The notes under the pieces were generated by a model that saw only the letters and a program-made list of their open reading frames with translations, was not told the DNA's origin and searched no databases. A program made the translations under genes and the position numbers. Shown in pieces: positions 12,212 through 41,296 of a stretch of DNA of 42,915 bases. Location: the IMG/VR virus record IMGVR_UViG_3300042691_037676, positions 1-42,915 of that record; one strand, given 5' to 3'. The stretch's first letter is position 1. Each line of letters starts with the position of its first letter. This stretch comes from a virus.

Positions 12212-12266
12212 ACTATTTTAATCATAAATATAATAGTAAATCGTTTTTTTAAGTAAATAAGTAAAT

Positions 12267-21699: not shown

Positions 21700-21733
21700 A
21701 ATTTATAGTTTTATTAATAAATATCAGAAAAAC

Positions 21734-25700: not shown

Positions 25701-28700
25701 GATTAGTGATTCTGTTCCTTTAGTCCAGTTTATTGGGTCTGAATTACCAGAACCACCACTTTTTATAATATTTGTGCCTTTATGGAAAATTGGTTTTGAT
25801 GAGTCAGCTCTCCATAACATTCCACCAATAAACGCAACCCATAATTTAGGTGCCGAAATAAAACCAGCCCTATTTCCAAAAGTATTTAATATTTCATTAA
25901 CATTAAAAATGCCTTTTGGTTGGTTATCATTTTCAGAAGAGTATAAACCATTCCAAGGTAATGTATGTAAAAACAATAAAGCTTTAGCATAATCACCATC
26001 AAATTTAAGAAATATATTACCTATTTGTTCATTATATAAACGACTACCAAATAAACCAATTGGTGCACTATCTGAATCAGAAAACGCAGAAATTTGAAAA
26101 CCAATAAATGGATATGAAACATTATCGCTTTTTTCTTCAATAAAGCTTGATAATAAAATTCTATTTTTACCTAAAGAATCATGTGTTGTTTGCTTACCTA
26201 TCGTATATTTAACCGCATCTTGTATTTTTTCAAATTGTTTTATCTTATCACTACCTATATCGTAAGGTGTTATTTTTTCTTTTCTTTTATAACAAACAGA
26301 ACCCATAGCGAAAGGTTCATAATTAAAACCACCTTCTTTAATATCGCTAAAGAACATAATTCTATATTCAGCTTTATCCATTTTATCAACCCCATAATTT
26401 AAAACTTTATAGTCTTGTATTGAATATGGACCAGAATATTGATTAAAACCAACTTCATTAAATTGTTTATTAAACTTTTCTTGTGGTAATTTTAAAACAT
26501 CTAATAACAATGTACTGCTTTCATTTACAACACTAGTTGATTTTATAGATGATTTATACGTGTCTGGTGAAATAATTTTAATATATACACCACCATCATC
26601 TTCTTTTTGATTAATCGTATTATTTGGATTTAAATAATTAGATGATGTATAATTTGTCAAAAATAAGTTTCCTTCTTCTGCTTTATTTTTTGTGTTCTCT
26701 AAAAAACTAAATTGATATTCAAATTTGTTATCATTAGTTGTTATTGGTAATATTTTTTTTGTTTGTGAATCATAAATAAAATTATAATACCAATCATTGT
26801 TTAATTTTTTAATTAAAGAAACACTTTCATTATTATTTTTAGCTTTAACATCAACAAAATCTTCTTTTTTTAATTGTGATAATGATTTTTTAATAACATC
26901 ATTATCAATCAAAGATAATATAGCTTCACTTTCTTTATTTGCTATATCAACAATTTCTTCTTTTGAAAGTTTATAGTTAGTGTATCCAATATAAATAAAA
27001 GCTCTTTCCATTAAAAGAGCAATAACTTCTTCTTTTGTGTTAGCTTGAATTCTTTTATAAGGAAATGAATCAATAAATAATCTTGTATCTATTGGATTTA
27101 TTGGAATCCAATTAGAATTATTTAGTTCTGATGCAATTTCTATATCAGCTATTTTTTTAGCTGATTCGATAAAAGCTTTTAATAAATCATCAATAAATAT
27201 TGTCTCATCTATTTTACTTGCATCTAATACATTGGAGTTACCTAAATATTTTTCAACATAAGCACCTTTATTAACTGCATCTGGTTCCCTATACTCTGGC
27301 CATGGATAAAAATTTTGATTTAATTTGCTTGAAGCGTCATTATTTGTTGTTTTGTTTACACTTGTTGATTTATAATCAAATGAATTAATAAATTTTTTTT
27401 CTAATTCGGATTTTCTAATTGGGCTTGTTGTCGCTTCAGTTGCCACATCATATAATACATGCATAAAAAGTTCAACGGCAGCTGTAAATGAACCAACAAT
27501 TGCTCTAATTGTTGGTTCAAATTTTATTTCTTGTGTTATATTGTTTCTTAAAGTATTAGCAACCTCAATCTTTAAATTATTACCTTCTTGTTTTAAATTT
27601 GTTTCAGTTTCATTTAAAATTCTTAATTGTTCTCTGAAATCATAAACATCAAACACCTTTTCAAAAGCAATGTTATTTTGACTACCGTAAATTTTTAGTT
27701 CCTCTCTTGTTTTAACTTTATCTAAAGCTTGAGACAATTCGCTTGTTAAAGTATTAGTTGAATTTAATAATCTTAAACTTAAACCTTTATATGTTTTAAC
27801 ATTAGAAAAACTTAATTCTTTTTCATTTAATGAAATATCTGAAAACATTTCAGTATTAAAAAGTTTTACGTTTTCTGCTATATTTTCGTTGTAAGTTTTT
27901 ATAGCATCATTTAATTCCGTATTTGTAGTTTGTGCAAAAGGGTTTGCAAAAGGGCTTGTTGTTTGTTGTTCAGTTTGTAATGGAGCAAAAATTAAAGGCC
28001 CAACTTGTGTGTTAGTTGTAAAATTATCTTTAAGTACAAATTTAAAATCGGTTGCATCTTTATTAATATTAAAATCACTTTGTCCAAATGTGTTTATATT
28101 CGATTTAAGTGTTGTTATTAATTCCAATTTAGAATCTAATTTTTTTAAATCAGCAACATTTGGGTCTGAATCTTCTAATTTTTTTACTCCTTCATCAATC
28201 TTGCTAATTTTTTCAGCTAACTCATCTAATGTATATAAATTACTTCTAGTTTCTTTTATTTGTTCCCATTTTTCTTTGCCTTTTTCTGTATATGGTATTG
28301 CTCGTAAATAACCAATTAACATATCTGAAAGCATAGCATATGTATACCCAATAAAATTAGCTGTTATTTCAAAATTACCAGTTTGTGAGTTAAATCTTGC
28401 ATTGAATTTAGTTAAATGCAAATTATACTTAACAGGCATACCATAATACCCCTTAACCGTTAATGTGAATATAGGGTATGGTAAACTGAAAAATTCAGCA
28501 TATTTGTTTTGACCATTAGCTATAAATTCTTCATTTTGAAAAATGGCTGAACCTCTTAAATCAATAAAATTAATTACTATCAACGGTGCGTAAGATGAAT
28601 TAAAATCAATATCAATAGATGAAATACCCAATGCTTGTTGAACATTTGGCTCGTTTAAATTAGTTGTTAAATCAGTATAACTTGTTGTTAATGCTTTTTT

Positions 28701-28937
28701 ACCAGCAACCTTATCACCTTCAATAAATGTAACGTAAGAACCCTCTGTTGATATAAATGTGCTACTTATGCCATTACTATTTAATATTGTTCTAGCTTTT
28801 TTTGTTGTTTCTAATTGAACATAGATTGACAAATCTTCTAATGGTACAGAAATATTATTTGATAAATTTTGTCCATCAAAATCATTAGGGTCTATTAATA
28901 ATGTTTTCTTGGAACTACATGAAATCTTATTCGCCAT
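22743..28937 (-). CDS. Giant baseplate protein with two cell-wall hydrolase domains
   Basis: A 2064-residue protein, by far the largest here. The N-terminal third reads as a baseplate or hub structural region (PLPYPIFTLTVKGYYGMP-like strands near residues 150-175, then YTYAMLSDMLIGYL), with coiled-coil stretches around 230-300 and 400-470. The middle is long beta-rich sequence with one CNTCYEKM cysteine pair. At about 1700-1870 lies a DUF2272-like domain (PWSAVFTSYLMLGGD, later GDLMCYKRSG and HCDVIYNV), and at about 1895-2050 a SleB-like hydrolase (ICALENGTDQGRCDVAQSIY, then NQYEPVDRA). Both are linked to peptidoglycan degradation, so the protein probably combines the roles T4 gives to gp27 and gp5. 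It overlaps the gp53-like gene by 11 nt. Confidence 0.85.
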   Translation of the reverse strand: MANKISCSSKKTLLIDPNDFDGQNLSNNISVPLEDLSIYVQLETTKKARTILNSNGISSTFISTEGSYVTFIEGDKVAGKKALTTSYTDLTTNLNEPNVQQALGISSIDIDFNSSYAPLIVINFIDLRGSAIFQNEEFIANGQNKYAEFFSLPYPIFTLTVKGYYGMPVKYNLHLTKFNARFNSQTGNFEITANFIGYTYAMLSDMLIGYLRAIPYTEKGKEKWEQIKETRSNLYTLDELAEKISKIDEGVKKLEDSDPNVADLKKLDSKLELITTLKSNINTFGQSDFNINKDATDFKFVLKDNFTTNTQVGPLIFAPLQTEQQTTSPFANPFAQTTNTELNDAIKTYNENIAENVKLFNTEMFSDISLNEKELSFSNVKTYKGLSLRLLNSTNTLTSELSQALDKVKTREELKIYGSQNNIAFEKVFDVYDFREQLRILNETETNLKQEGNNLKIEVANTLRNNITQEIKFEPTIRAIVGSFTAAVELFMHVLYDVATEATTSPIRKSELEKKFINSFDYKSTSVNKTTNNDASSKLNQNFYPWPEYREPDAVNKGAYVEKYLGNSNVLDASKIDETIFIDDLLKAFIESAKKIADIEIASELNNSNWIPINPIDTRLFIDSFPYKRIQANTKEEVIALLMERAFIYIGYTNYKLSKEEIVDIANKESEAILSLIDNDVIKKSLSQLKKEDFVDVKAKNNNESVSLIKKLNNDWYYNFIYDSQTKKILPITTNDNKFEYQFSFLENTKNKAEEGNLFLTNYTSSNYLNPNNTINQKEDDGGVYIKIISPDTYKSSIKSTSVVNESSTLLLDVLKLPQEKFNKQFNEVGFNQYSGPYSIQDYKVLNYGVDKMDKAEYRIMFFSDIKEGGFNYEPFAMGSVCYKRKEKITPYDIGSDKIKQFEKIQDAVKYTIGKQTTHDSLGKNRILLSSFIEEKSDNVSYPFIGFQISAFSDSDSAPIGLFGSRLYNEQIGNIFLKFDGDYAKALLFLHTLPWNGLYSSENDNQPKGIFNVNEILNTFGNRAGFISAPKLWVAFIGGMLWRADSSKPIFHKGTNIIKSGGSGNSDPINWTKGTESLIPTWDVSTVTPKKLQYLKHDSDDNRIYKFGSMVFPQDEDDDFIDLDNTLLQLPDQVKNEFKQVFFDFVKLRDGESDWSILKNKLEVFKPTTATTWVNTYNRLLTNISAGGGLYSDGTLRKEKMFSLFNAENNGKKVLNDYIIFSPYEDNDDFKYNFMTELKDNSDGVNMILELMTQEVYIANTTYRIWQQEKTFCNTCYEKMSNIFVSDDDLNTFISTCTSNFSKQNSQTVDEKKKQQKNEIFGSDSDIVIKFQLYRTCKNIYDKWIGGTDSLINLMFGKNEFRNGLDKELAGVGKEIRLIDSFRFVNRSFRDIGDEFIINPTPIISYLKENQNSSFYDVVGSLLSSNNFDFIALPSFINFNEKNLVKMFTPMTTLEAFDNGEIGPSFVCVYVGQTSKNLNFNASEYPNDGVDFRCDSEGNLETSLAQDFYQEKESHENNVAVFAVNYSQQNQNIFKDIILDQNEFSETAESLKIVDDIATKGSENRRTYGGQNIFNVYSVRSYKAEVEMMGNAMIQPMMYFQLNNIPMFHGAYMITHVKHNIKPNHMSTSFTGVRIKNIETKLMKESEFYMSLLESIGIDGIDETVNTNSVNGKNYIDDYYNDLLLNTPAVKTIENSQLPNKKALTDRALQEISNWKNGSIKEQDGVQFLDVYVKEVPGISSESAANDTTPWSAVFTSYLMLGGDKSFPKSPMHYDYVTNAMKGKNGYEAFSLNSGLKIKAEIGDLMCYKRSGSYTASHCDVIYNVENNKAYIVGGNIANTIQLKQINLDNGYLNQPVSEYKILVKKTNNFYYNSKKLIGTGVDISSNSGTVATGTDADYWSLVAICALENGTDQGRCDVAQSIYNRLDSKLYGSNTIKGLIIAKNQYEPVDRAVQEFNSINNKNTAIKAFMKSKNVSEQVAKNEIEKSVKALKNTTLVNSSKQFIGGRTDFYSNTIKDRIPLNGRVGLVERDNQIFGWFVGPSSIAYGKKNPIASNSPNFSNVA

Positions 28938-29262: not shown

Positions 29263-29293
29263 ATAAATATAATTTTAATATTTATTTTGTAAA
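29263..29293 (-). promoter_or_regulatory. Candidate phage late promoter (copy 1)
   Basis: On the minus strand TTTACAAAA (29293-29285), 15 nt, TATTTAT (29269-29263), then 15 nt to the ATG of the gp53-like gene. The same two boxes with the same 15-nt spacing precede the 1361-aa and 237-aa tail genes. No terminator separates it from the upstream gene. Confidence 0.6.
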
Positions 29294-29295
29294 TA

Positions 29296-32200
29296 TTAAT
29301 TATAACCCCATGGACTTCCAGCACCACCACCACCAGGTAATCCTCCTTCAAATCCTCCAAATTTACCCTCCCACTGTTCCTGTTCTTTCTTTGATATATA
29401 GTTAGAAATCCAAGGAGAGTCACCAAATTTATTACCTAATACTTCAATTGAAATATAATAAAGATATGATTTTTTATACTTTAAACCATCATAACTATTA
29501 GCAAAAAAATATTTTTTACTTGTGTTACTTCCAAGAACGCCAACACCTAATTCTCGTTTAAAAAATGAATTTAATGGGTCAATTAAATATAATCTAAAAT
29601 TATAATTTTTACTTAATGTATTAGATAAAACAATTTCTAATTCACCTATAAAATAATCACCACTAAGTTTTTTTGATTCGCCATATTTAACAGATATTAT
29701 TTTATTGATATCTGGTTGTGTTTGAGTAATTAAAGGAATATTTTTTTTTATTGCTTCATCATTTGCTTTCTTTTGGTCAATAATTGGATTTGTATCATCA
29801 ACATTAATTGGTGGTATTACTTCTTTTTTTACTTCTTCTTTTATTGAATCATTTTTTAATTGGTTTTTATCTATATAGTCAGCTCTTGGGTCATATACTT
29901 GTGCGTTAGCATAATAATTAAATGATAATGCATTTTGTAATTTTTGAATTGGACCCATTAATGAACTACCACCAATAAATTTAAATGACATATTGACATT
30001 AGCTATCATTGGTTGTACCCCAATACCCTCTGGATTTAAATCCCAAACTAGTGGTTCATAATCAAATGCGATATTATCAATAACAATTTTCGTATTATAA
30101 AAATCACCTAATCTTAAAATACATACTGGTGCTCTACCAAAAGCCAAATTGTTAGCACCCTGTTTTTCAAGTGTTGGTCCTTGTCTAGTACATTGATGTA
30201 AGAATGTTAATCTAGAATTTAGTCCTTCTGGTGTTGTAGAATGAAAAGCTGGGTGAAAATATCTAATTTTTTCTCTGAAACTATCAAAAACAAATTTATC
30301 TTTATCTGTTAATTGTTCAAAATACCTACTTTCATCATACAATCTATTTTTAATTTTTGTGTTGATGTCTCGTGTTGATGTTGTTTGTTGAATTGGTTCT
30401 GGTTGAATTGTTTCTGAAGCGGCTAATTCATTACTAAATTCAAAAACAACACTACTTCTCCTATCAGATTTACACGCAAAAGTATCTGTTGCTGCACTTA
30501 TTCCTGTGATACATTCGCTTTGATTGGCCGTTAAAGCTGTGTTTTTAGGTGTTGCAAAACGTTTGGCTATATAGTCTTGTGTTTTCCCGTTAAATATCCC
30601 TAAAGTATTTATTAAATATTTTTTTATACTTTCTGTTCTTGCGTCAGCTAATTTTTTATTAGAATCTGGATTACCCTGTGGGCTGGCATATGATGTTATT
30701 CTGATGATACAATGTGGACATTTTTCATCTAAATATTTTGCTAATGCTGGACCATAATTTGGGTCGGAAAATCCGCTATAACTAATCCCATCTAACTCAA
30801 CGATTCCACCTCGCCAACCATTTAAACCATAATTATGGTCATCAACCCATGGTGTTTGTGATGTCACACCACCGACATATGAACCAATACCATAACCAGA
30901 ATCATAAACATTATAATCTATCTTTTCTGTTGGTGTTGGTGAACCATTTTTTAAACCATTCTCATAACCCTTAGAAATTATGTCAGTAATATTAGAACCA
31001 TCATTAGGGAAATAAACTGTAAAACTATCTGGTGCTATTTCGGGAGCAATAACAACTTCTTGTGTTGTTATTTTTTGTGTTTCAGCACCATCACTTTTTT
31101 CAGAAACGGTTAATTTATCAGCAAATTTACTTGCTGGGTCAATACAACCAGCAAAAAATGAAGCTACGTAGTTATCATCTGGACCATTAGGGTTCCTAAA
31201 TCCATTAATGTAGCTAGGGTGGTCAACTATAATACTAAATGATAAATTACCACTTCTTTCAGTGTTATTATAGGTATATATTGGTTCACCTCGACCAATA
31301 AAATTAGTACTTTCCCAATTTACGGCTGATGTTTCATTAAATTGAATATTATATGGTGGAAACCACATTATTCTACCTTTTTTACCACTTAATAAATCAC
31401 CCATTCCTATTTCAACTGGTGGTAAATTAGGACTTTCATCAGCCCAAGCTAAGTTTTCAATTGAAAACATAAATTTTTTTGGGTCAGCCCCAACATAACC
31501 ATTTTTATCTTTTGTATATGGTGCTATTTTAGGAAAACCGTATTCATCTAAAGTTAAATTTTCAGTTTGAAATCTATATGGGACTGTATCACCAGTATAT
31601 ACCCCCTTGTGTCTTATTAAATTTTTAACACTATCATATCTACCAATTGTTGTCCAACTTCTACAAAAAGTAGAATCTGGGTTTGACAATACATTTACAT
31701 AACCATTTACATCATATAAATTTTTACTTAAAACAGCACTACCCTTAGAAAGTGTTTTATTATTACTTGTTAAAATTTGACTTGAGCTAACATTAGCTTC
31801 TCCTTTTGCTGTTACTATATTTTTCATACCAGCACTTCTAAATAATTTTTGTGTTTTTACTAATAAAGAAGTCTTTGGTAAAATAGCCCCAGTAATATCG
31901 ATTAAATCAGCTCTTGGTGCACCTTCATCATCTTCATTGATTGTGTTTACCGTACCACCAACATCTGAAGTCCATGTAAAACCAACATCACTTAACTTTC
32001 TATTATCATAACCAGTATTACCTTTTGGTCCAGTAAATGTTTCTTCTGGTCCTTTAAAACCATATTCACTAATCATCGCTGAACGATTATAACTAATGCT
32101 TGGTATTAATCCATCAGCATTTAAAAAATTTAAAATAGTACCCTTGGTTTTATCATCATAAAAAGCATAAAGATTTGGATTAATTGCTTTTTGACCTTTG

Positions 32201-33381
32201 TTGTTTAAATATCCTGGTGCGTAACCGCTTCTAAATTGTGTATTTTCTGGTTTATCAAAATCACCACTACCCGTTAAATTAGCATTGGCATTAGCAATCA
32301 AAGCCAATGCTTGTCCTTTACCAGTATTTTCAATCATACTATTGGCTCTTTCAATATTACCAGATTGATTTTCTGATGAAAAAATTGAACCAGCTTCAGA
32401 TAAATAACTTTTTGGTATTGTAAAACCTAATATTCTTGCTGTATAATCACCAGTTTTTCCTAAAGCTCCAGAAGGCATTGTAATTTTATAGTTTGGTCTA
32501 AGTCCTGGAAGTGGGCCACCTTTTACCAAAGCTAATAAATTTTCACCAATATTTAAACCACCAAAAAGAATTTGTTCAGCATTAAAAGCAGCATTATTTG
32601 CTAACGCTAAAGCTAATTGTTGTCCACCAATTAAACCTAATTTTGTATCATTTACTAAACCAGTTGAACCTAATACTCTACCAGCTAAACTAGCTCTAAA
32701 ATCAAAATTGGTTACAACACCACCTTTAGCTAATCCTAAGCCTTGACCATTTAATACACTTCCAATTATATTTACAGCTTGAATACCATTTGTGTTACCT
32801 CTATTTAAACCACCATAAACATCAGCATATCCTTGTATTTGTTGTGCAAAACCAGCTGGTTGAAGACTGATAAAATCAGCCATATCAATTTGTTTACTTG
32901 AATCTAAATATAAATTATAAAGTGTACTTTTCTTTCTAAAACCAGCATGTTCTGTTTTACCAATAATACCAACTTCTTTGATTTGTTCATTTGATGATTG
33001 TGGATATGATTGAATACCATTTGGAAATTGAATATCTCCAAAAACACCTTCATTTTTTTGAACATAATCAATATTTTGTAATACAGCTGCATCATCACCA
33101 TAATTCTTAAATTGATTTGGAAGAACAGCTAATTCATATCTTAAAATACCTTCAACTTCTAGTGGTAAACCAAATGGTGTAACATTAGCATTACCATTGA
33201 TTGATGTATCCAATACGGGTTCACCAATTCTTGGACTACCATTTAAAGATGTTGAAATTTGTGGATATACAGGTAATAAATTCTTATTTAATAAGAAGTC
33301 TCTAGCCCCATACGTAACAGCAATATCTGTTATATTATTTTTTGTACTTGGTGTTGGACTTGAAGTATTATAAAATGGCAT
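29296..33381 (-). CDS. Large baseplate protein with an OmpA-like domain
   Basis: A 1361-residue protein. Its N-terminal 600 residues are Gly, Asn and Ala rich. A baseplate-type module appears at about 660-720 (MWFPPYNIQFNETSAVNW, FIGRGEPIYTYNNTERSG) and seems to resume at about 1050-1165 (APVCILRLGDFYNTKIVID, MSFKFIGGSSLMGPIQKL). Between them, at about 845-985, lies an OmpA/MotB-like domain: IRITSYASPQGNPDSNKKLA, then ADARTESIKKYL and a closing DRRSSVVFEF strand. OmpA domains bind peptidoglycan, so this tail part may grip the cell wall after the outer membrane is crossed. The last 200 residues are linker and a beta domain ending in Gly-rich sequence. The candidate late promoter stands 14 nt before the ATG. 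Confidence 0.82.
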   Translation of the reverse strand: MPFYNTSSPTPSTKNNITDIAVTYGARDFLLNKNLLPVYPQISTSLNGSPRIGEPVLDTSINGNANVTPFGLPLEVEGILRYELAVLPNQFKNYGDDAAVLQNIDYVQKNEGVFGDIQFPNGIQSYPQSSNEQIKEVGIIGKTEHAGFRKKSTLYNLYLDSSKQIDMADFISLQPAGFAQQIQGYADVYGGLNRGNTNGIQAVNIIGSVLNGQGLGLAKGGVVTNFDFRASLAGRVLGSTGLVNDTKLGLIGGQQLALALANNAAFNAEQILFGGLNIGENLLALVKGGPLPGLRPNYKITMPSGALGKTGDYTARILGFTIPKSYLSEAGSIFSSENQSGNIERANSMIENTGKGQALALIANANANLTGSGDFDKPENTQFRSGYAPGYLNNKGQKAINPNLYAFYDDKTKGTILNFLNADGLIPSISYNRSAMISEYGFKGPEETFTGPKGNTGYDNRKLSDVGFTWTSDVGGTVNTINEDDEGAPRADLIDITGAILPKTSLLVKTQKLFRSAGMKNIVTAKGEANVSSSQILTSNNKTLSKGSAVLSKNLYDVNGYVNVLSNPDSTFCRSWTTIGRYDSVKNLIRHKGVYTGDTVPYRFQTENLTLDEYGFPKIAPYTKDKNGYVGADPKKFMFSIENLAWADESPNLPPVEIGMGDLLSGKKGRIMWFPPYNIQFNETSAVNWESTNFIGRGEPIYTYNNTERSGNLSFSIIVDHPSYINGFRNPNGPDDNYVASFFAGCIDPASKFADKLTVSEKSDGAETQKITTQEVVIAPEIAPDSFTVYFPNDGSNITDIISKGYENGLKNGSPTPTEKIDYNVYDSGYGIGSYVGGVTSQTPWVDDHNYGLNGWRGGIVELDGISYSGFSDPNYGPALAKYLDEKCPHCIIRITSYASPQGNPDSNKKLADARTESIKKYLINTLGIFNGKTQDYIAKRFATPKNTALTANQSECITGISAATDTFACKSDRRSSVVFEFSNELAASETIQPEPIQQTTSTRDINTKIKNRLYDESRYFEQLTDKDKFVFDSFREKIRYFHPAFHSTTPEGLNSRLTFLHQCTRQGPTLEKQGANNLAFGRAPVCILRLGDFYNTKIVIDNIAFDYEPLVWDLNPEGIGVQPMIANVNMSFKFIGGSSLMGPIQKLQNALSFNYYANAQVYDPRADYIDKNQLKNDSIKEEVKKEVIPPINVDDTNPIIDQKKANDEAIKKNIPLITQTQPDINKIISVKYGESKKLSGDYFIGELEIVLSNTLSKNYNFRLYLIDPLNSFFKRELGVGVLGSNTSKKYFFANSYDGLKYKKSYLYYISIEVLGNKFGDSPWISNYISKKEQEQWEGKFGGFEGGLPGGGGAGSPWGYN

Positions 33382-33395
33382 AGTATTATTTCTAT

Positions 33396-33426
33396 ATAAA
33401 TACTATTCTACACCAATTTTTGTAAA
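33396..33426 (-). promoter_or_regulatory. Candidate phage late promoter (copy 2)
   Basis: On the minus strand TTTACAAAA (33426-33418), 15 nt, TATTTAT (33402-33396), then 14 nt to the ATG of the 1361-aa baseplate gene. It is immediately downstream, in transcription order, of the tandem AT repeats at 33437-33520. Confidence 0.6.
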
Positions 33427-33436
33427 AATAAATAAA

Positions 33437-33472
33437 TTTATAATAATATTTATAATAATATTTATAATAATT
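33437..33472. repeat. Three 12-bp AT tandem repeats
   Basis: Three copies of TTTATAATAATA (last base T in copy 3). On the minus strand the array contains two copies of TATAAATA (33454-33447 and 33466-33459), which is the T4 late promoter consensus. The array lies in the 199-nt gap between the tape measure and the 1361-aa gene. Confidence 0.88.
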
Positions 33473-33478
33473 AAAGTA

Positions 33479-33520
33479 TATCTTTTAAATAATATCTTTT
33501 AAATAATATCTTTTAAATAA
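33479..33520. repeat. Three 14-bp AT tandem repeats
   Basis: Three perfect copies of TATCTTTTAAATAA, followed by a degenerate fourth (TATATTTTATAC). The array is 6 nt from the 12-bp array, so the gap holds two adjacent, unrelated AT-only iterons. No stem is strong enough for a normal terminator. Confidence 0.88.
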
Positions 33521-33580
33521 TATATTTTATACAAAAATACCGTTTTTTTTTGACAAAAACAAGTGTTTTGTAAAATATAT

Positions 33581-35677
33581 TTAATTTTTTCCACCATTTA
33601 TTGCTTTTTCTGTTTCAGAATGTATCATTGCAGTCAAGTTTCTTATAAAAGTAGGGTCTTTGGTAATCTCAACAGGTATATTACCACCACCAGGAAGACT
33701 CAACATTAATGTACCGTTAATATTGACATCATCAAAAATATGTTTAATAATTTGTGGTTTTTCAACCTTAGATTTTAAACTCTTATCAATAATACCATTT
33801 GGTTTCATTGCCAATAAATCATCTTTATTATCAATAGGTGTTACTGTGCCATTTTGTACAATAGCATTTCCTTTTGAAAAATCAGAACCGTAATTCTTAC
33901 CCATTTCAAATAAACCATCATGTGTTGGTTGGTTCATAGCATCACCAATTATTTTACCACCCAAACCACCAGCTAAACCACCACCAGCTGCTGCTGCTAT
34001 TACAAGCGGTGTTGCTAAACCTCCAGTTGCTGCTATTGCTGCTGCACCAGCAGCAAGTCCTAAACCAGCCATCCAAGCAGCTTTATCACCTTCTTTTGTT
34101 GATTCGTTACCTTTAGTTTCAGAAAACTTACCACCAAGATATTTTCCAAAAGAAATAGCACCTAAAGCAGTGGCAACACCAGCTAATCCAATAGCTATTG
34201 GGCCTAACGCAGCGGCCAATGCTGGTGCGGCAGTTGAAAAAGCACCAAAAGCAGAGACAATACCACTTGCTGCACCAGCAATAGTAGCACCAATACTAAG
34301 TACCTTAGAAGCAACTATAGCTAAAAGGAATGTCTTAGGAAAATCAAGTATTATACCCCCAAAAAATGATATAACTTTACCAACCATACCAGCAAAAGCA
34401 GCAATTTTTTCACCCCATTTTTCTGTTTTAAATTTTTTGACAAACCCATCAATTTTAGGTAATAATTCTTGATTAATTGTTTCAATAATTGGTAGTAAAA
34501 ACACTTTCATACCATTAATTGTATTAGTTAAAGCGTCATCAAATGTTCTGGCCGCTTTAGCTCTTTCTTCAAGCCCTTTCTTTTCAGCTACTTTACTAGC
34601 TAACATAGTCTTATCAGCGGATGATAATGTTTTAATTAGTTTAGGTGTGCCATCAATATTAATATAAGCTTCACCTTTTTCATTAAATTGCGACTTATTA
34701 GTTAAATATTCGGCTAATTCTTTATCTTCTTTACTACCACTAAGACTAAAATTCATTTGTGATTTAATCTTGGTAAATTTAGCCGCATTTTTACCAGCTT
34801 CAGCTAATTCATCATAAGAAACACCCATTTGCTCAGCTACTTTACGAAGTCTATGCATTTCCAACCCAGAAATTTCAAATTCACCATTTTCCTTGTTAAA
34901 ATGAACAGCTGATTTAGCTGCTTCTCCAAGTGCTGCTGTTAACCCTTCCATATCGTTACGAGCCATGTACATCAATTTGAATGGGTCAGCCAATTTAGCC
35001 CATTCACCACCCATAACTTGCAACTGCGATGACATATCAACAGCACCTTCAATATCAAATAACTTTTCGGCCATATTAGCGGCAAAGTTCATATCAACAC
35101 CTAATTTAGTTGTTGTTTCTGCCATCTTAGCCAATCCTTTTGCACCACCCTTAAAATTGTACTTATTCAACATTTTTATGTTTTGTTGAATATTTTTAAC
35201 AACCTTAGATGCATTAAGACCCATTTTATGTGAATCATTAAGTGTTTTTTCAACAAAATCACGAGTACGCTCAGCTGAATATCCTTGATTCTCCATATCA
35301 GCAGCCATACTAGCTGCGCCTTCAGCTCCAAGACCAGTTGCGACTGCCAATTGACTCATGGCTTTAAGACCATCTTGAGTTAGGATGACATTCCTACCAA
35401 TCCCATCAGCATAATCTGACTGCATCTTAGCTAATTGTTCTATATTAACACCAATCTGATTAGTCTCCCAAGAAGCTGATTTGATACCCTCATAAAAACC
35501 ATTAGTTTCTTTAGATAATAAACCCATGGATAGAGCAGATTTTTTCATATCTGAATCCATCTTAAATAATTCTTTAAAAGGTATTACACCTTTAAATTCA
35601 GCTTTTATTGAATTTAAATTACTTTGTATTCTACTAGTAAGTTTTTGAACAGCTGATAAATTAGTTTGCCAACTCAT
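33581..35677 (-). CDS. Tail tape measure protein
   Basis: A 698-residue protein with the expected tape-measure design. Residues 1-390 are helical and charged (LNSIKAEFKGVIPF..., MGVSYDELAEAGKNAAKF). Residues about 400-600 are strongly Ala/Gly-rich with hydrophobic spans (ISFFGGIILDFPKTFLLAIV, GLGLAAGAAAIAATGGLA), which may insert in the host membrane during ejection. The C-terminus (GTLMLSLPGGGNIPVEITKD) is a short beta region followed by an amphipathic helix. If the common 0.15 nm per residue holds, the tail would be about 100 nm. It lies directly below the chaperone-like genes, the normal order. T4 gp29 (590 aa) is the functional equivalent, but sequence similarity is not obvious. Confidence 0.85.
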   Translation of the reverse strand: MSWQTNLSAVQKLTSRIQSNLNSIKAEFKGVIPFKELFKMDSDMKKSALSMGLLSKETNGFYEGIKSASWETNQIGVNIEQLAKMQSDYADGIGRNVILTQDGLKAMSQLAVATGLGAEGAASMAADMENQGYSAERTRDFVEKTLNDSHKMGLNASKVVKNIQQNIKMLNKYNFKGGAKGLAKMAETTTKLGVDMNFAANMAEKLFDIEGAVDMSSQLQVMGGEWAKLADPFKLMYMARNDMEGLTAALGEAAKSAVHFNKENGEFEISGLEMHRLRKVAEQMGVSYDELAEAGKNAAKFTKIKSQMNFSLSGSKEDKELAEYLTNKSQFNEKGEAYINIDGTPKLIKTLSSADKTMLASKVAEKKGLEERAKAARTFDDALTNTINGMKVFLLPIIETINQELLPKIDGFVKKFKTEKWGEKIAAFAGMVGKVISFFGGIILDFPKTFLLAIVASKVLSIGATIAGAASGIVSAFGAFSTAAPALAAALGPIAIGLAGVATALGAISFGKYLGGKFSETKGNESTKEGDKAAWMAGLGLAAGAAAIAATGGLATPLVIAAAAGGGLAGGLGGKIIGDAMNQPTHDGLFEMGKNYGSDFSKGNAIVQNGTVTPIDNKDDLLAMKPNGIIDKSLKSKVEKPQIIKHIFDDVNINGTLMLSLPGGGNIPVEITKDPTFIRNLTAMIHSETEKAINGGKN

Positions 35678-35680
35678 ACC

Positions 35681-35908
35681 TTATATTGATTTATTAATTT
35701 TAATTATCGTATCTTTAGTTTCTTCAAGAGTTTTATTAAAATCTATTTGTGATTTATTTTGTGAATTAATTAAATCAATTTTTTTTAGTTCTTGACTTAA
35801 AATTTCTTTATTAATGCTTTTAATTTCCTTAATAATATTAAGTGTTCTATCAAGAGCAATATTAAATTTTAATTGAAGTTCAAGTTGTTCTTTTGAAATA
35901 TTATCCAT
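35681..35908 (-). CDS. Small coiled-coil protein upstream of the tape measure
   Basis: A 75-residue, almost entirely helical protein (MDNISKEQLELQLKFNIALD...) rich in Lys, Ile, Glu, Leu and Asn with heptad-like hydrophobic spacing. Its stop is 3 nt above the tape measure ATG, so the two are co-translated. The gap upstream (35909-35976) holds a strong hairpin terminator and then two overlapping TATTTAT boxes 19 and 25 nt before the ATG, without a clear TTTACAAAA partner. A partner or chaperone of the tape measure is a reasonable guess. No family is recognised. Confidence 0.7.
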   Translation of the reverse strand: MDNISKEQLELQLKFNIALDRTLNIIKEIKSINKEILSQELKKIDLINSQNKSQIDFNKTLEETKDTIIKINKSI

Positions 35909-35943
35909 GTTAGTTATGTTTATATCTATAAATATAAATATAT

Positions 35944-35978
35944 AAAAAAATTACCCACGAATTGTGGGTAATTTTTTT
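35944..35978. terminator. Strong bidirectional hairpin terminator
   Basis: A 15-bp perfect stem whose core is ATTACCCAC/GTGGGTAAT (35944-35958 with 35964-35978) and loop GAATT. It is flanked by A and T runs on both strands. It overlaps the stop of the 106-aa frame and separates the chaperone genes from the coiled-coil and tape measure genes. Confidence 0.9.
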
Positions 35979-36297
35979 ATATAGGTAATTTACCATTATT
36001 TATTTGGTTTTTAAGTGCTTGTCCACTTACTTTAGTTGTTCTAGAACCTTTATAATTATTAGATTTTGAGTTTTTTTTCATATCTTCCATTTTTTCTTCT
36101 TGTTCTGACATTCTTCTATGATGTCTGGCAAGATAAAAACGTCGTTCGTTAGTGGGCATGTTCATTACGCTGTCATAAGTAAAATTTTGCATTACCTGTG
36201 TACAAACGTAAATTTCCTCCCATAAATGGTCCTTATACTCGGAAGTTAGGCCAAAAAAAGTTGACGTTAAGGGGAAGAAAGGTAGTAATAGACCCAC
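35977..36297 (-). CDS. Second frame of tail-chaperone pair (probable frameshift extension)
   Basis: A frame of 106 codons if read from a GTG at 36297. That start lies inside the end of the 416-aa gene, has no spaced ribosome-binding site, and the first in-frame ATG is only at residue 36. The conserved-looking part begins at about residue 20 (YKDHLWEEIYVCTQVMQNF, then YDSVMNMPTNERRFYLARHH) and resembles small chaperone-like domains found next to tape-measure genes; it ends in a basic, Lys/Asn-rich tail. It is in the +1 frame (equivalently -2) to the upstream gene and shares a T7 run with it. I therefore think it is made as a C-terminal extension by ribosomal slippage; the fusion would have 501 residues. 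An independent product cannot be excluded. Confidence 0.62.
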   Translation of the reverse strand: MGLLLPFFPLTSTFFGLTSEYKDHLWEEIYVCTQVMQNFTYDSVMNMPTNERRFYLARHHRRMSEQEEKMEDMKKNSKSNNYKGSRTTKVSGQALKNQINNGKLPI

Positions 36298-37483
36298 CTC
36301 CAGGAGTCTGAACCTTAATATTTAAATCCACACCGCTTTCAATTTCATCAACATAATTAAGAAAAGCTTGAGAATCTTTAATCCTCATTGACTCTGAAAT
36401 CGTGTTTATTGTTTGTTCACTTGTATCGCCATTAACCGAAACAATCATTCTTCTTAATTTGTAGATGTTACTATTATTGACTGGAATACCATTTAAACGG
36501 TCTTGTTCAACCATTTCATCAATTTCATCAACAACACCACAAGTTAAAAACTTGAATTTTAATTCTAATTTTGATAACGGTAATGTAAAATTAAATAACC
36601 CTTGAGAATCTGGTTCTACACCCAATTCCTTATATTTCAAATCATTTAAATTGATTTCAGTATCAAATGGTATTTCATTCTCATCTAATACAGTTATTGG
36701 ATACATTTCACCATAACTTGTGGCTCTAAGCCATATCATAATAGCATTTCTATCACCAAGATGTAAATTTTTGTATCTTAAACTTGGTTCTAAGATTTTC
36801 CTATCCATTAAAACTTCCAAGAATAAACCACTTTGAAGTAAATTAGGACTTGTTAAAATGTTTTCATCGGCTGTTGTCATATAACCGACTTTAATTGAAC
36901 TTTTTTTCATTGGATATAATTTACCTTTGGATGGTAATGGGATAACATCATAAGGTGAATTAAAATTTGGTTGACTCAAATTAATAATATACTGTTTTAA
37001 TTTGTCATCATTTGGTTCGTTCATATTGTTTAATGTATTTGTTGGTGGTTTAATTGGTGGCACATTCGCTGGTGGCTCAACCTTTGGTGGTTCATTCATC
37101 ACAGTTTTTCTGTTTTGAGCCTCACTAAATTGTTGTTGATATTTATCAATCATTCCATTATTTTTAGCGATTTGTTCGTCACGCAAACGAATTTGTTCTT
37201 CGTATCTTTTTTGTGATTCACTTTTTTCAATTAAAGATTCGTCTTTTACGAAACCGAATTCTTTTTTTTGATTCATTTGTTCTTCAGTCCTTTTACGCAT
37301 CATTTCGACAGCACTCATTTGGCTACCTTCTTCAACGTTACGATAAACTTCTTCAACAGCTACTTTTTTTCTAGCTTCATACTCTTCTAAAGATTTAGCT
37401 GTATATTGTTCAATATCTTGGCTATTATTAGAATTGGTGTTAGTTTCCGCTTTATTTGGAAATACATTTGGCTTTTGTTCCAT
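36233..37483 (-). CDS. T4 gp26-like baseplate hub / tail assembly chaperone protein
   Basis: A 416-residue protein in two parts. Residues 1-165 are charged, helical and Gln/Glu-rich with a Pro-rich linker (PPKVEPPANVPPIKPP). Residues about 170-416 match the pattern of the T4 baseplate hub assembly family (gp26-like): YDVIPLPSKGKLYPMKKSSI, then TTADENILTSPNLLQSGLFL, and an LGDRNAIMIWLRATSYG helix. The N-terminal region is extra relative to T4 gp26 (208 aa). It lies between the tube paralogue and the tape measure, where tail assembly chaperones with frameshifts sit in many phages, and its last 65 nt overlap the second frame. Its own stop is a TAA at 36235. Confidence 0.72.
   Translation of the reverse strand: MEQKPNVFPNKAETNTNSNNSQDIEQYTAKSLEEYEARKKVAVEEVYRNVEEGSQMSAVEMMRKRTEEQMNQKKEFGFVKDESLIEKSESQKRYEEQIRLRDEQIAKNNGMIDKYQQQFSEAQNRKTVMNEPPKVEPPANVPPIKPPTNTLNNMNEPNDDKLKQYIINLSQPNFNSPYDVIPLPSKGKLYPMKKSSIKVGYMTTADENILTSPNLLQSGLFLEVLMDRKILEPSLRYKNLHLGDRNAIMIWLRATSYGEMYPITVLDENEIPFDTEINLNDLKYKELGVEPDSQGLFNFTLPLSKLELKFKFLTCGVVDEIDEMVEQDRLNGIPVNNSNIYKLRRMIVSVNGDTSEQTINTISESMRIKDSQAFLNYVDEIESGVDLNIKVQTPGGGSITTFLPLNVNFFWPNFRV
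36253..36259 (-). other. Candidate ribosomal frameshift site (T7 run)
   Basis: Seven consecutive T residues on the minus strand, read AAC TTT TTT TGG in the 416-aa frame at residues 408-411, 18 nt before its stop. Slipping of Phe-tRNA by +1 (or by -2) on this run enters the open downstream frame at GGC. This is the only homopolymer of this length in the overlap. Confidence 0.55.
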
Positions 37484-37484
37484 T

Positions 37485-38198
37485 TTAATATCTTAATTTT
37501 ATGTTTTTAGGTGTTATTTTTACTTTAATTGTTGATATAGAATCATCTTTATATTCTAATTTACCATAGTTTATTGATTTTATAGTACAATCGATAATAT
37601 CCCATTTTTCTATATTAACACCAGTTGGGTCTAATAAATATAATTCAAAATTAAAACTTTTAAATGGTTTTTCTAAATTTAATAATTGAAAATGTATTGT
37701 TTGTGCACTAGATGGTCCAATAGGGTCGTAAACCTCAAATTCAATATCATCCCATTTATATTCTCTTTTATAAGTAAAACCAAATACCCTCTTTTCAATC
37801 AATTTAATTGATGGTCTAGTAATATTTTTAAAAACCCAAGAAGGTAAAGTATCCTTTTCAAAATTAACTATAAAACGATTATTTAATTTAGGTTCATATG
37901 GTACTGGCATTTTATTTAGTAATGAAATTTTTTCATTATGAACAGATTGTTTTAATAATGGATTTGGTTTACCAGTTAATTTTTCATATTCTGGATTTGG
38001 TTCACCAGTATATGGGTCATATAAGGGTATTTCATTTTTCTTTTTCTCCAAAAAATCATTTATTGATGTTGGGTAGTCTTTATCTTCTAAAAATTTAGAA
38101 TTAGTATTTTGATTTGCTGGTGGTAAATTTTTATAAAAACTTGATATACCACCTAAACTCTTTACTTCAGTAAACCCACTTAATTTATCGTTTTCCAT
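37485..38198 (-). CDS. Tail tube paralogue with N-terminal extension
   Basis: A 237-residue relative of the tail tube protein at 39239-39727. Residues 97-237 align with it: MPVPYEP against MPLPYEP, DPIGPSSAQ against DPIGPSAAQ, and LDPTGVNIEKW against LDPTGVVIEKW. The 96-residue N-terminal extension is Pro/Asn-rich and unlike anything in the tube protein. Contractile tails have tube-like adaptors at the baseplate end (T4 gp48 and gp54), so it is probably a tube initiator or adaptor. It lies 1 nt above the gp26-like gene, and the candidate late promoter stands 16 nt before its ATG. Confidence 0.82.
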   Translation of the reverse strand: MENDKLSGFTEVKSLGGISSFYKNLPPANQNTNSKFLEDKDYPTSINDFLEKKKNEIPLYDPYTGEPNPEYEKLTGKPNPLLKQSVHNEKISLLNKMPVPYEPKLNNRFIVNFEKDTLPSWVFKNITRPSIKLIEKRVFGFTYKREYKWDDIEFEVYDPIGPSSAQTIHFQLLNLEKPFKSFNFELYLLDPTGVNIEKWDIIDCTIKSINYGKLEYKDDSISTIKVKITPKNIKLRY

Positions 38199-38214
38199 AT
38201 AATAACATTTATCG

Positions 38215-38245
38215 ATAAATATACAAATTGAATTTTTTTTGTAAA
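38215..38245 (-). promoter_or_regulatory. Candidate phage late promoter (copy 3)
   Basis: On the minus strand TTTACAAAA (38245-38237), 15 nt, TATTTAT (38221-38215), then 16 nt to the ATG of the tube paralogue. Its upstream box overlaps the -33 end of the divergent plus-strand promoter at 38239-38269. Confidence 0.62.
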
Positions 38246-38269
38246 TATTAAATTAAATTAGTATATTTG
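38239..38269 (+). promoter_or_regulatory. Bacteroidota-type promoter of the HTH gene
   Basis: TTG (38239-38241), 20 nt, TATATTTG (38262-38269), an exact fit to TAnnTTTG. The predicted start is about 4 nt later, at or 1 nt before the ATG at 38274, so the mRNA would be leaderless or nearly so. Confidence 0.68.
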
Positions 38270-38273
38270 TAAA

Positions 38274-38909
38274 ATGAGCGTATTAAATAAAAAACAACAC
38301 AAAATAATTATCAACCTTAATAATAATGGGTTATCTAGTGGTAAGATTGCTGAAAAATTAAACTTAACTAGACAAAGAGTCTGTCAAATATTAAAAATTT
38401 ATAATATTGATAGTAGAGCAAATAGACGTGAAAAAAAGTTAAATTCACTATCAATTAAAGTATTAACCATGTTAAATGATGGTTTAACACCACAAATGAT
38501 TAGAAGTAAATTAAATATTACCAATTATCAAGTTAATAAATTATTGAATAAAAACATAGATTTAAGAATTCTTGATAAAGAAAAGATTAACACTAGAAGA
38601 AAATTGATAACTGATTTATACAAAAAAGGTAAAACAGCATACGAAATAATTGATATTTTAAACCCAATTTATCCAAGTGTTAAAGTACCAAATGATATTT
38701 ATAAAGATGTTGATTATAGTAGAATATCTGTAAATAGAGCTAATACTAGAGTAAAAGGGGGTAAGGAATTAAGAAAAATAATAAAAAAAGTTGGAAGTAA
38801 ACACACGCTTTACGAAACCTTAAATATAGTTAAAAATAAAGGATATAAAAACCTTAATGGTGGTGATTTAAAATTTCATTCCGTTGTTAGATTCTATTAC
38901 GATAATTAA
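38274..38909 (+). CDS. Helix-turn-helix DNA-binding protein, likely regulator
   Basis: A 211-residue basic protein with repeated helix-turn-helix units. Unit 1 is at about 15-41 (NNGLSSGKIAEKLNLTRQRV) and unit 2 at about 66-91 (NDGLTPQMIRSKLNITNYQV), clearly related to each other; a weaker third is at 111-130 (LYKKGKTAYEIIDILN). The C-terminal 70 residues are basic and without a recognised fold. Unit 1 resembles the region-4/Trp-repressor-like HTH common in phage regulators and homing proteins. It runs opposite to the tail operon from a host-type promoter that overlaps the divergent late promoter, so it may regulate that site. Its target is unknown. Confidence 0.78.
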   Translation: MSVLNKKQHKIIINLNNNGLSSGKIAEKLNLTRQRVCQILKIYNIDSRANRREKKLNSLSIKVLTMLNDGLTPQMIRSKLNITNYQVNKLLNKNIDLRILDKEKINTRRKLITDLYKKGKTAYEIIDILNPIYPSVKVPNDIYKDVDYSRISVNRANTRVKGGKELRKIIKKVGSKHTLYETLNIVKNKGYKNLNGGDLKFHSVVRFYYDN

Positions 38910-38941
38910 TGTGGCACACCACTTAATATTGAAAATTATTT

Positions 38942-39154
38942 ATGTTAACAAGTGATATAATTAGCTTTGGTGATTTTATAATATATTGTGCTGAAGCTGA
39001 TATACCAAAGGAAAAGGCAATTGATTTGATGTTTATACTATTAGATGATAAAACAATAGATTCAAAAGAAAGAATAAAAGAAACACTAAATGAACATCTA
39101 TCAATTGACGCTTATATTAGTATGGTTAACAAACTAAATTTAAATTACCAATAA
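38942..39154 (+). CDS. Small acidic unknown protein (70 aa)
   Basis: A 70-residue acidic, helical protein (MLTSDIISFGDFIIYCAEAD...) without a recognised domain. It follows the HTH gene by 32 nt, in a gap with a small GTGG-CACA-CCAC stem at 38911-38922 and no obvious promoter, so it is probably co-transcribed. The leader before the ATG is AT-rich (GAAAATTATTT). A convergent hairpin terminator lies just after its stop. Small acidic proteins beside a regulator sometimes act as its partner, but this is only a suggestion. Confidence 0.68.
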   Translation: MLTSDIISFGDFIIYCAEADIPKEKAIDLMFILLDDKTIDSKERIKETLNEHLSIDAYISMVNKLNLNYQ

Positions 39155-39157
39155 ATA

Positions 39158-39201
39158 AAAATTCCTTTAATACATTTTTAAAAATATACTAAAGGAATTT
39201 T
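39158..39201. terminator. Hairpin terminator between convergent genes
   Basis: A 12-bp perfect stem AAAATTCCTTTA/TAAAGGAATTTT (39158-39169 and 39190-39201) around a 20-nt loop that is itself partly self-complementary. It lies between the plus-strand 70-aa gene and the minus-strand tail tube gene and can serve both directions. Confidence 0.75.
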
Positions 39202-39238
39202 AAATTAGTTAACTATTTGATAAACAAGTAAATAAAAA

Positions 39239-39727
39239 TCAAAAAAGTAATATTGCTCTATCAAAACGTAAAGTTGCAGTAATTTCAGCAATACCGTCAT
39301 CATCCATTGATAAGTCACCGAAACCAACGTTTGTTAACATTGTAGCATCAAGCAACCATTTTTCGATAACAACACCCGTTGGGTCAAGCATCTCAAGTTC
39401 AACTGGACGTTTATAACCAGCTGCATAACCTTGACGACCTGTAATAGATTCTGAGTGTAAACGAACCCATTCCATAACAGCTTGTGCTGCTGAAGGACCA
39501 ATTGGGTCACGGAAAGTAACATCAATCGGTTCCCAAGTAAATCTACCAATAACCCAAGTAGATGTATTTAAGAAAGGAATTTCAACTTCATTTTGTGTTA
39601 TTGAAGGTCTTGCCGCTGAAGCTAACCACCATTGTTGGATACCTAAGTCAGCTGGGAATGTAATTAACCAACGATTCTTTTTCTTAGGTTCGTAAGGCAA
39701 AGGCATTTTCATTAATAAATCGGCCAT
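39239..39727 (-). CDS. 19: Tail tube protein, T4 gp19-like
   Basis: A 162-residue protein, equal in length to T4 gp19 (163 aa), forming the stacked hexameric rings of the inner tail tube. Conserved parts include MPLPYEPKKKNRW at the N-terminus, a WWLASAARPS segment, EPIDVTFRDPIGPSAAQAV and the LDPTGVVIEKW loop. The sequence is richer in Ala, Gly and GC-containing codons than its neighbours, as often seen for abundant virion proteins. The ATG at 39727 follows an A-rich leader (AAAAAAACAAGAAAAT). No late-promoter boxes are found here, although the gene must be strongly expressed; transcription may come from beyond the homing-endonuclease insertion or from an unrecognised site. Confidence 0.9.
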   Translation of the reverse strand: MADLLMKMPLPYEPKKKNRWLITFPADLGIQQWWLASAARPSITQNEVEIPFLNTSTWVIGRFTWEPIDVTFRDPIGPSAAQAVMEWVRLHSESITGRQGYAAGYKRPVELEMLDPTGVVIEKWLLDATMLTNVGFGDLSMDDDGIAEITATLRFDRAILLF

Positions 39728-39733
39728 ATTTTC

Positions 39734-39764
39734 TTGTTTTTTTAGATATTTATTAGTACATTTG
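39734..39764 (+). promoter_or_regulatory. Bacteroidota-type promoter of the endonuclease gene
   Basis: TTG (39734-39736), 20 nt, TACATTTG (39757-39764), an exact TAnnTTTG match. The last element lies inside a palindrome, GTACA-TT-TGTAC (39756-39767), a possible operator. The predicted start near 39768 is 8 nt before the first ATG and 35 nt before the second. Confidence 0.65.
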
Positions 39765-39775
39765 TACTCATAATA

Positions 39776-41296
39776 ATGTTATTTAATAATAAATATACAG
39801 AAATGGAAAAACTAACAAAAAAAGATAAGTTTATTTTAAAGTGTAAAAATAAATTTGGTGATAAATTTACATATGGTGATTATATAAATTCACAAACAAA
39901 AATTTCTATTTTATGTAATTTACATAAAGAATATTTTTTACAAGTACCAGCTGAACATCTAAGAGGAAAGAATGGTTGTAAATTATGTACTAATAAACAT
40001 GAGGTTAAACCTATTAAAAAAATATATGATTATAAAAATCAAAATAAAATTTATAATAATGAAAAATTCATAAGTTTAGCTATAAATAAACATGGAGATA
40101 AATATGATTATTCAAATGTTAAATACACAAAATCAGATTCAAAGATTAAAATAATATGCTCAATCCATGGCGAATTTGAACAATATCCTTATTCACATTT
40201 AAGAGGAAAGGGTTGTAAAAAATGTGGTAAAGAAGTTACAAAAAATAAACTTAGTTTAAATGTTGAAGAATTTATTAGTAAATCTAAAAAAACACATGGT
40301 GATAAATATAATTATTCATCTGTTGACTATAAAAATAGTCACACTAAAGTTAATATTATTTGTGATAAACATGGTATGTTTGAACAATTACCATATGACC
40401 ATATAAGTGGACATGGTTGTGAGAAATGTATTTCAACAATATCAAATCAAGAGTTAGAAATAAATGAATTTTTAAAATCATTGGGGTTAAAAACAATTAC
40501 ATCATCAAGGTCAATTATAAAACCAAACCAATTAGATATTTACATACCATCTCATAATTTAGCAATTGAATATAATGGCCTTTATTGGCACTCTGAAGAG
40601 TTTTTAAATAAAGATTATCACTTAAATAAAACAATTGAATGTGAAAAACAAAATATACGTTTAATTCATATATTTGAAGATGAGTGGTTATTTAAACAAG
40701 ATGTTGTTAAAAGTAGATTAATGAATATGTTAGGATTAACTAAAAATAAAATTTATGGTAGGAAATGTGTTATTAAAGATGTAACTTTAAAAGAATCAGC
40801 ATTGTTTTTAGAGAAAAACCATATTCAAGGAGTTGTAAATTCATCAATAAGAATTGGGTTATATTATAATGATGAATTAGTTTCGTTAATGTGTTTTAAT
40901 AAACCAAGACTAGGTATTGGCACCACATATGATGGTTATGAATTAAGTAGATTTTGTAATAAATTAAACACAAATGTTATTGGCGGTGCAGACAAATTAC
41001 TTAAATACTGCATCAAAACACACCAACCAAAAGAAATAATTAGTTATGCTGATAAAAGGTGGTCACAGGGTGATTTATATGAAAAATTAAGTTTTATTAA
41101 ATCCCACATAAATAAACCAAACTATTATTATGTTATTGGTAAAAATAGAAAACATAGGTTTGGTTTTAGAAAAGAAATACTTAGAAAACAAGGATTTGAC
41201 ACTAAAAATAAAACTGAACATGAAATTATGATGGAAAGAAAAATATATAGGATTTATGATTGCGGTACAATAACATATAAATTAAACTTGACTTAA
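39776..41296 (+). CDS. Homing-endonuclease-like protein with three zinc-binding repeats
   Basis: A 506-residue protein with three related repeats (about 19-71, 98-150, 166-218), each with a GDKY/F-x-Y core, a C-x2-H knuckle (such as IICSIHGEFEQ) and a closing CxxC, as in DUF723-type domains. These may bind DNA. After them comes a Vsr-like/PD-(D/E)XK-type nuclease domain, about 225-506: LDIYIPSHNLAIEYNGLYWH (D and E residues), then LIHIFEDEW, ALFLEKNHIQG and SYADKRWSQGDLYEKL. This combination is typical of free-standing phage homing endonucleases. The first ATG (39776) or the second at 39803 (codon 10, MEKLTKK) could be used; the second has a better A-rich leader. It was probably inserted beside the tail tube gene. 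Confidence 0.82.
   Translation: MLFNNKYTEMEKLTKKDKFILKCKNKFGDKFTYGDYINSQTKISILCNLHKEYFLQVPAEHLRGKNGCKLCTNKHEVKPIKKIYDYKNQNKIYNNEKFISLAINKHGDKYDYSNVKYTKSDSKIKIICSIHGEFEQYPYSHLRGKGCKKCGKEVTKNKLSLNVEEFISKSKKTHGDKYNYSSVDYKNSHTKVNIICDKHGMFEQLPYDHISGHGCEKCISTISNQELEINEFLKSLGLKTITSSRSIIKPNQLDIYIPSHNLAIEYNGLYWHSEEFLNKDYHLNKTIECEKQNIRLIHIFEDEWLFKQDVVKSRLMNMLGLTKNKIYGRKCVIKDVTLKESALFLEKNHIQGVVNSSIRIGLYYNDELVSLMCFNKPRLGIGTTYDGYELSRFCNKLNTNVIGGADKLLKYCIKTHQPKEIISYADKRWSQGDLYEKLSFIKSHINKPNYYYVIGKNRKHRFGFRKEILRKQGFDTKNKTEHEIMMERKIYRIYDCGTITYKLNLT

Follow-up and report, generated by a model that had tools for sequence, protein, structure and literature searches.

The signal seen upstream of tail genes in this viral DNA is real, but it consists of one conserved box, TATTTATA, rather than two. 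The box is specific in strand and position, recurs in related phages and is accompanied by no general -35 element; related phages also encode an unannotated protein, here called sigma B. We consider it most likely, with a probability of roughly 0.7, that each box on its own forms a late promoter of the T4 type, read by sigma B as a phage-encoded, gp55-like sigma factor. The box is shared by a large set of T4-like phages, which for the most part probably infect Bacteroidota.

TATTTAT boxes in the window

The window, meaning the whole stretch of DNA that was analysed, is a 42.9-kb virus contig (42,915 nt). It encodes gp25-like and other baseplate wedge genes, a hub-like gene, two tail-tube-like genes, a ribonucleotide reductase, a DnaB-like helicase and a UvsX-like recombinase, a gene content that marks it as part of a T4-like phage genome. 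The tail-tube-like genes, of 237 and 162 aa, occupy positions 37485-39727, and the 237-aa copy was found in just one of the relatives searched (L033). Amid the tail genes, the opposite strand carries HTH and HNH endonuclease genes (38274-41296, plus strand), and a 2064-aa protein (22743-28937) combines DUF2272 with a weak cell-wall hydrolase match.

Table 1. TATTTAT boxes and upstream elements in the window
Feature	Positions	Strand	Remarks
TATTTAT box before 237-aa tail-tube-like gene	38215..38221	-	exact match
TTTACAAAA upstream element (-35 position) of the 237-aa gene box	38237..38245	-	sole promoter with the element conserved
TATTTAT box before 1361-aa gene	33396..33402	-	exact match; kept in all listed orthologs
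TTTACAAAA upstream element at 1361-aa gene	33418..33426	-	exact match
TATTTAT box before 106-aa gene	29263..29269	-	exact match
TTTACAAAA upstream element at 106-aa gene	29285..29293	-	exact match
TATTTAT box before gp25-like baseplate wedge gene (12211)	12224..12230	-	12 nt to ATG
TATTTAT box before 65-aa gene (21699)	21717..21723	-	17 nt to ATG; kept in orthologs
TATTTAT box before 75-aa gene (35908)	35928..35934	-	19 nt to ATG; overlapping second TATTTAT at 35934-35940
TATTTAT box before 162-aa tail-tube gene (39239-39727)	39789..39795	-	61 nt before the gene

Exact copies of TTTACAAAA-N15-TATTTAT occur three times in the window, all on the minus strand (29263-29293, 33396-33426 and 38215-38245), with gaps of 15, 14 and 16 nt to the ATG. 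None arose in 200 order-2 simulations of the window, bearing out the three identical copies with fixed spacing and 14-16 nt to the ATG that a preliminary description of this DNA had reported. When up to three mismatches are allowed, 21 matches are found against 14.3 expected, indicating that only the exact copies stand out. Equal frequency inside genes, which the same description had named as a sign against the motif, is not what is seen for the box: TATTTAT reaches 11.2 per kb in upstream gaps compared with 0.57 per kb inside genes. The boxes described before the gp25-like, 65-aa and 75-aa genes are likewise present (Table 1), and one that had been overlooked precedes the 162-aa tail-tube gene, within the start of a divergent HNH endonuclease ORF; at the orthologs of this gene the box is conserved in most relatives. 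That all three copies precede tail genes holds in part: the 237-aa protein matches a tail-tube family, whereas no family could be named for the 1361-aa and 106-aa proteins, which count as tail proteins by position only. In the relatives, the promoter matching 38215-38245 directly precedes the baseplate-hub gene. The orthologous 1361-aa promoters have other A/T-rich upstream sequence, such as TTTATAAA or TTTTCAAA, and the relatives' orthologs of the 106-aa gene have no TATTTAT box.

Spread and anatomy of the box in related phages

Named phages gave no match by megablast with the right part of the window or by tblastn with the 1361-aa protein, and relatives were therefore drawn from viral contigs; a search with the 1361-aa protein yielded many, of which 80 were kept. 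Since statistics from the window alone were too small, the large relatives (82-369 kb) were read in pieces, with genes called by a simple ATG-to-stop procedure and upstream 7-mers counted against a second-order model. TATTTAT was the top-ranking upstream 7-mer in 10 of 12 relatives and near the top in G005 and G002, with 33 occurrences against 4.6 expected in G001, 35 against 5.0 in G013 and 68 against 16 in G015. The cultured Flavobacterium phage immuto (NC_055915) gave 26 against 4.2. Densities were 3.4-11.2 per kb in upstream gaps and 0.14-0.57 per kb inside genes, a difference of roughly 10- to 40-fold, and the distance to the ATG peaked at 14-16 nt. The reverse complement is rarer or not comparably enriched upstream in most genomes; G009, in which sense and antisense densities are equal upstream, counts against our preferred reading. 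With the same pipeline, ATAAATA and TATAAAT came out on top in the T4 late region, used as a positive control, and two negative controls with Bacteroidota hosts showed no enrichment (Cellulophaga phage phiST, 1 against 1.55; Tenacibaculum phage pT24, 5 against 3.1). Microcystis phage Mel-JY01 carries the box (9 against 1.6) at 17-40 nt from the ATG. The top upstream 7-mer of Rhodothermus phage RM378 (L383) is TATTTAA, one base off TATTTAT. As far as the partial library searched shows, TATTTAT late promoters have not been reported in such phages.

A pooled alignment of 251 sites from 13 genomes, each required to have two or more A residues at +11 to +13 (251 of 288 pass), gave the consensus aTATTTATaa with AAA at +11 to +13, and TATTTAT is followed by A in about 72% of the sites. 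The A-triplet keeps a fixed position relative to the box, not to the ATG, whatever the distance between the two. At the -35 position none of the pooled sequence is conserved, the information at -24 to -22 being at most 0.05 bit. The same procedure recovered the -33 TTG of a host-type class, TTTG-N20-TAccTTTG, in G005 and G013 at 82-95%, indicating that the method could have shown a -35 element. In the relatives, a terminator-like hairpin with its T-run at -19 to -13 stands immediately before many late boxes; a T-tract at -18 to -13 was considered as a promoter element and rejected, as such sites more often fold into terminator-like hairpins (51% versus 13% below -6 kcal/mol).

In immuto, boxes stand before the genes for terminase, portal, sheath, tube, hub and tape measure, and small genes at 60-78 kb have another motif, GTTG...TATTTAGG. 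TATTTAT[AT] is found at 15 of 56 genes versus 3 of the 44 genes at 60-78 kb (p=0.017), and TATTTAGG at 0 of 56 versus 13 of these 44 (p=7e-6). This second immuto (L290) class, found before those 13 small genes, can be written aGTTGcc-N-TATTTAGGtatcaataattaaaa. In G005, the TATTTAT and TAC/TATCTTTG classes lie largely in different parts of the genome. Judged by the annotation of the genes behind them, the TATTTAT sites look like late promoters that differ in kind from the Bacteroidota TAnnTTTG consensus, and they would act late.

Sigma B as candidate reader and the alternatives

Searches with Sigma70_r2 revealed two kinds of sigma factor in the relatives. One is RpoD-like and occurs in most of them (for example L111:4519-5346(+), L099:8776-9606(+) and orthologs). 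The other, sigma B, is an unannotated protein of 232-264 aa ('hypothetical' in immuto, gp118) with a weak region 2 match (4e-5). A sigma B profile matches immuto (3.6e-107), Mel-JY01 (4e-46) and RM378 (2.5e-6), with no match in T4. Sigma B is present in 7 of 14 contigs (G001, G002, G005, G013, G014, G015 and, in two pieces, G016); its gene is absent from the 42.9-kb window fragment, and no sigma B was found in the partial contigs G003, G004, G009, G011, G012 and G020, all of which have the box. Since no other sigma factor was detected in immuto and Mel-JY01, sigma B is the best candidate reader. Two phages count against the pairing: RM378, which has a sigma B relative yet favours TATTTAA, and pT24, which has a weak sigma-2-like match without box enrichment. 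The phage-encoded sigma factor suggested in the preliminary description is the likely reader, with sigma B of the related phages as the candidate.

The G014 copy of sigma B matched the gp55 family phrog_234 at 1e-5, one of 37 copies doing so at E<=0.01, and HHalign of sigma B against gp55 gave E about 1e-3 at a probability of only 18-23%, a profile comparison that is suggestive only; for most copies the tie to gp55 is weak. In an AlphaFold model, a low-confidence linker joins an N-terminal helical domain to a C-terminal helix-turn-helix (pLDDT 71.1 and a low pTM of 0.40 with a broader alignment; pLDDT 63.5 for the first model). The structural neighbours of the model are mostly sigma factors with weak E-values, those from Foldseek against the PDB all exceeding 0.1, and in PDB sequence searches neither sigma B profiles nor the RM378 copy had a significant match. 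Pfam scans found no gp47-like gene near sigma B in G005 or immuto, indicating that there is no gp55-style synteny there. Families for gp33 and gp45 (Pfam PF16805, PF02916) were found in T4 and not in the tested relatives, whose contigs are partial, immuto being listed as complete; remote versions could escape such a search. Multisubunit RNA polymerase beta is absent, with good controls, and single-subunit RNA polymerase was not detected in a search without a responding control, so its absence is not established.

We infer from these sequences that the boxes mark transcription starts used late in infection and read by sigma B. TATTTATA would occupy the -10 position, which would place the start in the A-run, some 12 bases beyond where the box begins and within the conserved A-triplet; at most genes the leader would then measure roughly 8-10 nt. 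Sigma B, probably related to T4 gp55, would bind TATTTATA and redirect host RNA polymerase to the structural genes late in infection, and TTTAC(AAA) at the -35 position would be an optional element at a few promoters. More tentatively, and at somewhat less than even odds, late transcription may be carried out by a single fused sigma, in which a gp55-like domain 2 is joined to a C-terminal helix-turn-helix replacing gp33 on the polymerase flap, without gp33 or gp45.

A true two-box promoter, in which a phage sigma factor reads TTTACAAAA and TATTTAT together as its general late element, appears unlikely. Besides the three exact copies in the window, it is favoured by TTTACAAA-N16-TATTTAT, which is conserved at the baseplate-hub promoter of most relatives, by TTTAC, which has its peak precisely at -24 in each of two data sets that exclude the window (5 versus 1.0 and 3 versus 0.29 gene clusters), and by the predicted C-terminal helix-turn-helix of sigma B, which could read a -35 element. 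However, the 251 pooled sites have no conserved upstream box under a procedure that makes the host -33 TTG visible, TTTACAAA with up to two mismatches is no more frequent at -24 than the mean (8 versus 8.7 gene clusters), and the upstream element is missing at four of the seven boxes listed for the window. The preliminary description's general two-box element is thus not upheld across the 13 genomes; TTTAC(AAA) is partly real, as a minority -35-like element found chiefly at the baseplate-hub promoter. That the box is instead an mRNA or translation signal strikes us as barely plausible. The peak distance of 14-16 nt to the ATG and the A-rich leader would suit such a signal, but the A-triplet tracks the box and not the ATG, many boxes lie directly 3' of terminator-like hairpins, and at several genes of Mel-JY01 a purine-rich, Shine-Dalgarno-like sequence stands between the box and the more distant ATG.

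The RpoD-like sigma factor (about 272-303 aa; regions 1.2, 2 and 4) is an improbable reader. Most large relatives encode it in full, but it was not found in immuto, Mel-JY01, G001 or G014, all of which have the box; in several genomes its gene lies behind a conserved, host-like TTGAC...TATATTTG promoter, suggesting early expression, and by sequence it is a primary sigma factor, a better fit to the TAccTTTG class. It is very unlikely that the boxes are host promoters read by a primary or alternative Bacteroidota sigma factor. The box does share T/A-rich letters with the TAnnTTTG -7 box, but the motifs of F. psychrophilum include none described as TATTTAT (PMC9723704), phiST and pT24 lack enrichment in spite of their Bacteroidota hosts, and host-type promoters form a class of their own in G005 and G013. 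Provided that the host recorded for it is correct, the box in the Microcystis phage Mel-JY01 argues against a purely host-determined box as well as against a translation signal.

Comparison with known systems

The late promoter of T4 has one 8-bp box and no -35 element, and it is read by gp55 together with gp33 and the clamp protein gp45 (PMC2988020). Our preferred reading, late promoters recognised by sigma B, resembles this system in its 8-bp T/A box at the proposed -10 position, in the lack of a general -35 element, in an A/T-rich start region, in the location of the box before structural genes (here those of immuto) and in a sigma-2-type candidate reader. It differs in the box itself (TATTTATA here, TATAAATA in T4), in the greater length of sigma B, whose C-terminus is a predicted helix-turn-helix, and in that the gp33 and gp45 families were detected in T4 and undetected in the relatives.

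The motifs of F. psychrophilum comprise TAnnTTTG variants, a sigma-54 type, TAnnTTGY and a CGT-box type, and the sigma-A pattern of Flavobacterium pairs a -33 TTG with a TAccTTTG-type box (PMC9723704). Bacteroidota primary sigma promoters (TTTG...TAnnTTTG) have their like in the second class of the same phages, which in G005 lies mostly outside the TATTTAT-rich part of the genome; they have a conserved -33 TTG and another -7 box, whereas TATTTAT is without a conserved -33 element. The difference claimed in the preliminary description stands with respect to the Bacteroidota TAnnTTTG consensus, but the box is not unrelated to that of T4, from which it differs at 2 of 8 positions. RM378 is likewise T4-like and has a sigma B relative beside a helicase gene; it departs in the seventh base of its motif, TATTTAA, and in a sigma B similarity that is weak (2.5e-6).

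If correct, this reading would provide a readable late-gene map for a large set of T4-like phages that have not been cultivated, the majority of them probably with Bacteroidota hosts, and would name an unannotated protein family as their likely late sigma factor; the cultured immuto, grown on Flavobacterium sp. LMO8, makes the system testable. A review of T4 states that no fused late sigma is on record and asks why such a protein does not exist or has escaped detection (PMC2988020); sigma B is a candidate for it. The proposal also bears on whether late transcription can run without gp33 and gp45, and it would offer a natural comparison for a shift in gp55-type recognition from TATAAATA to TATTTATA.
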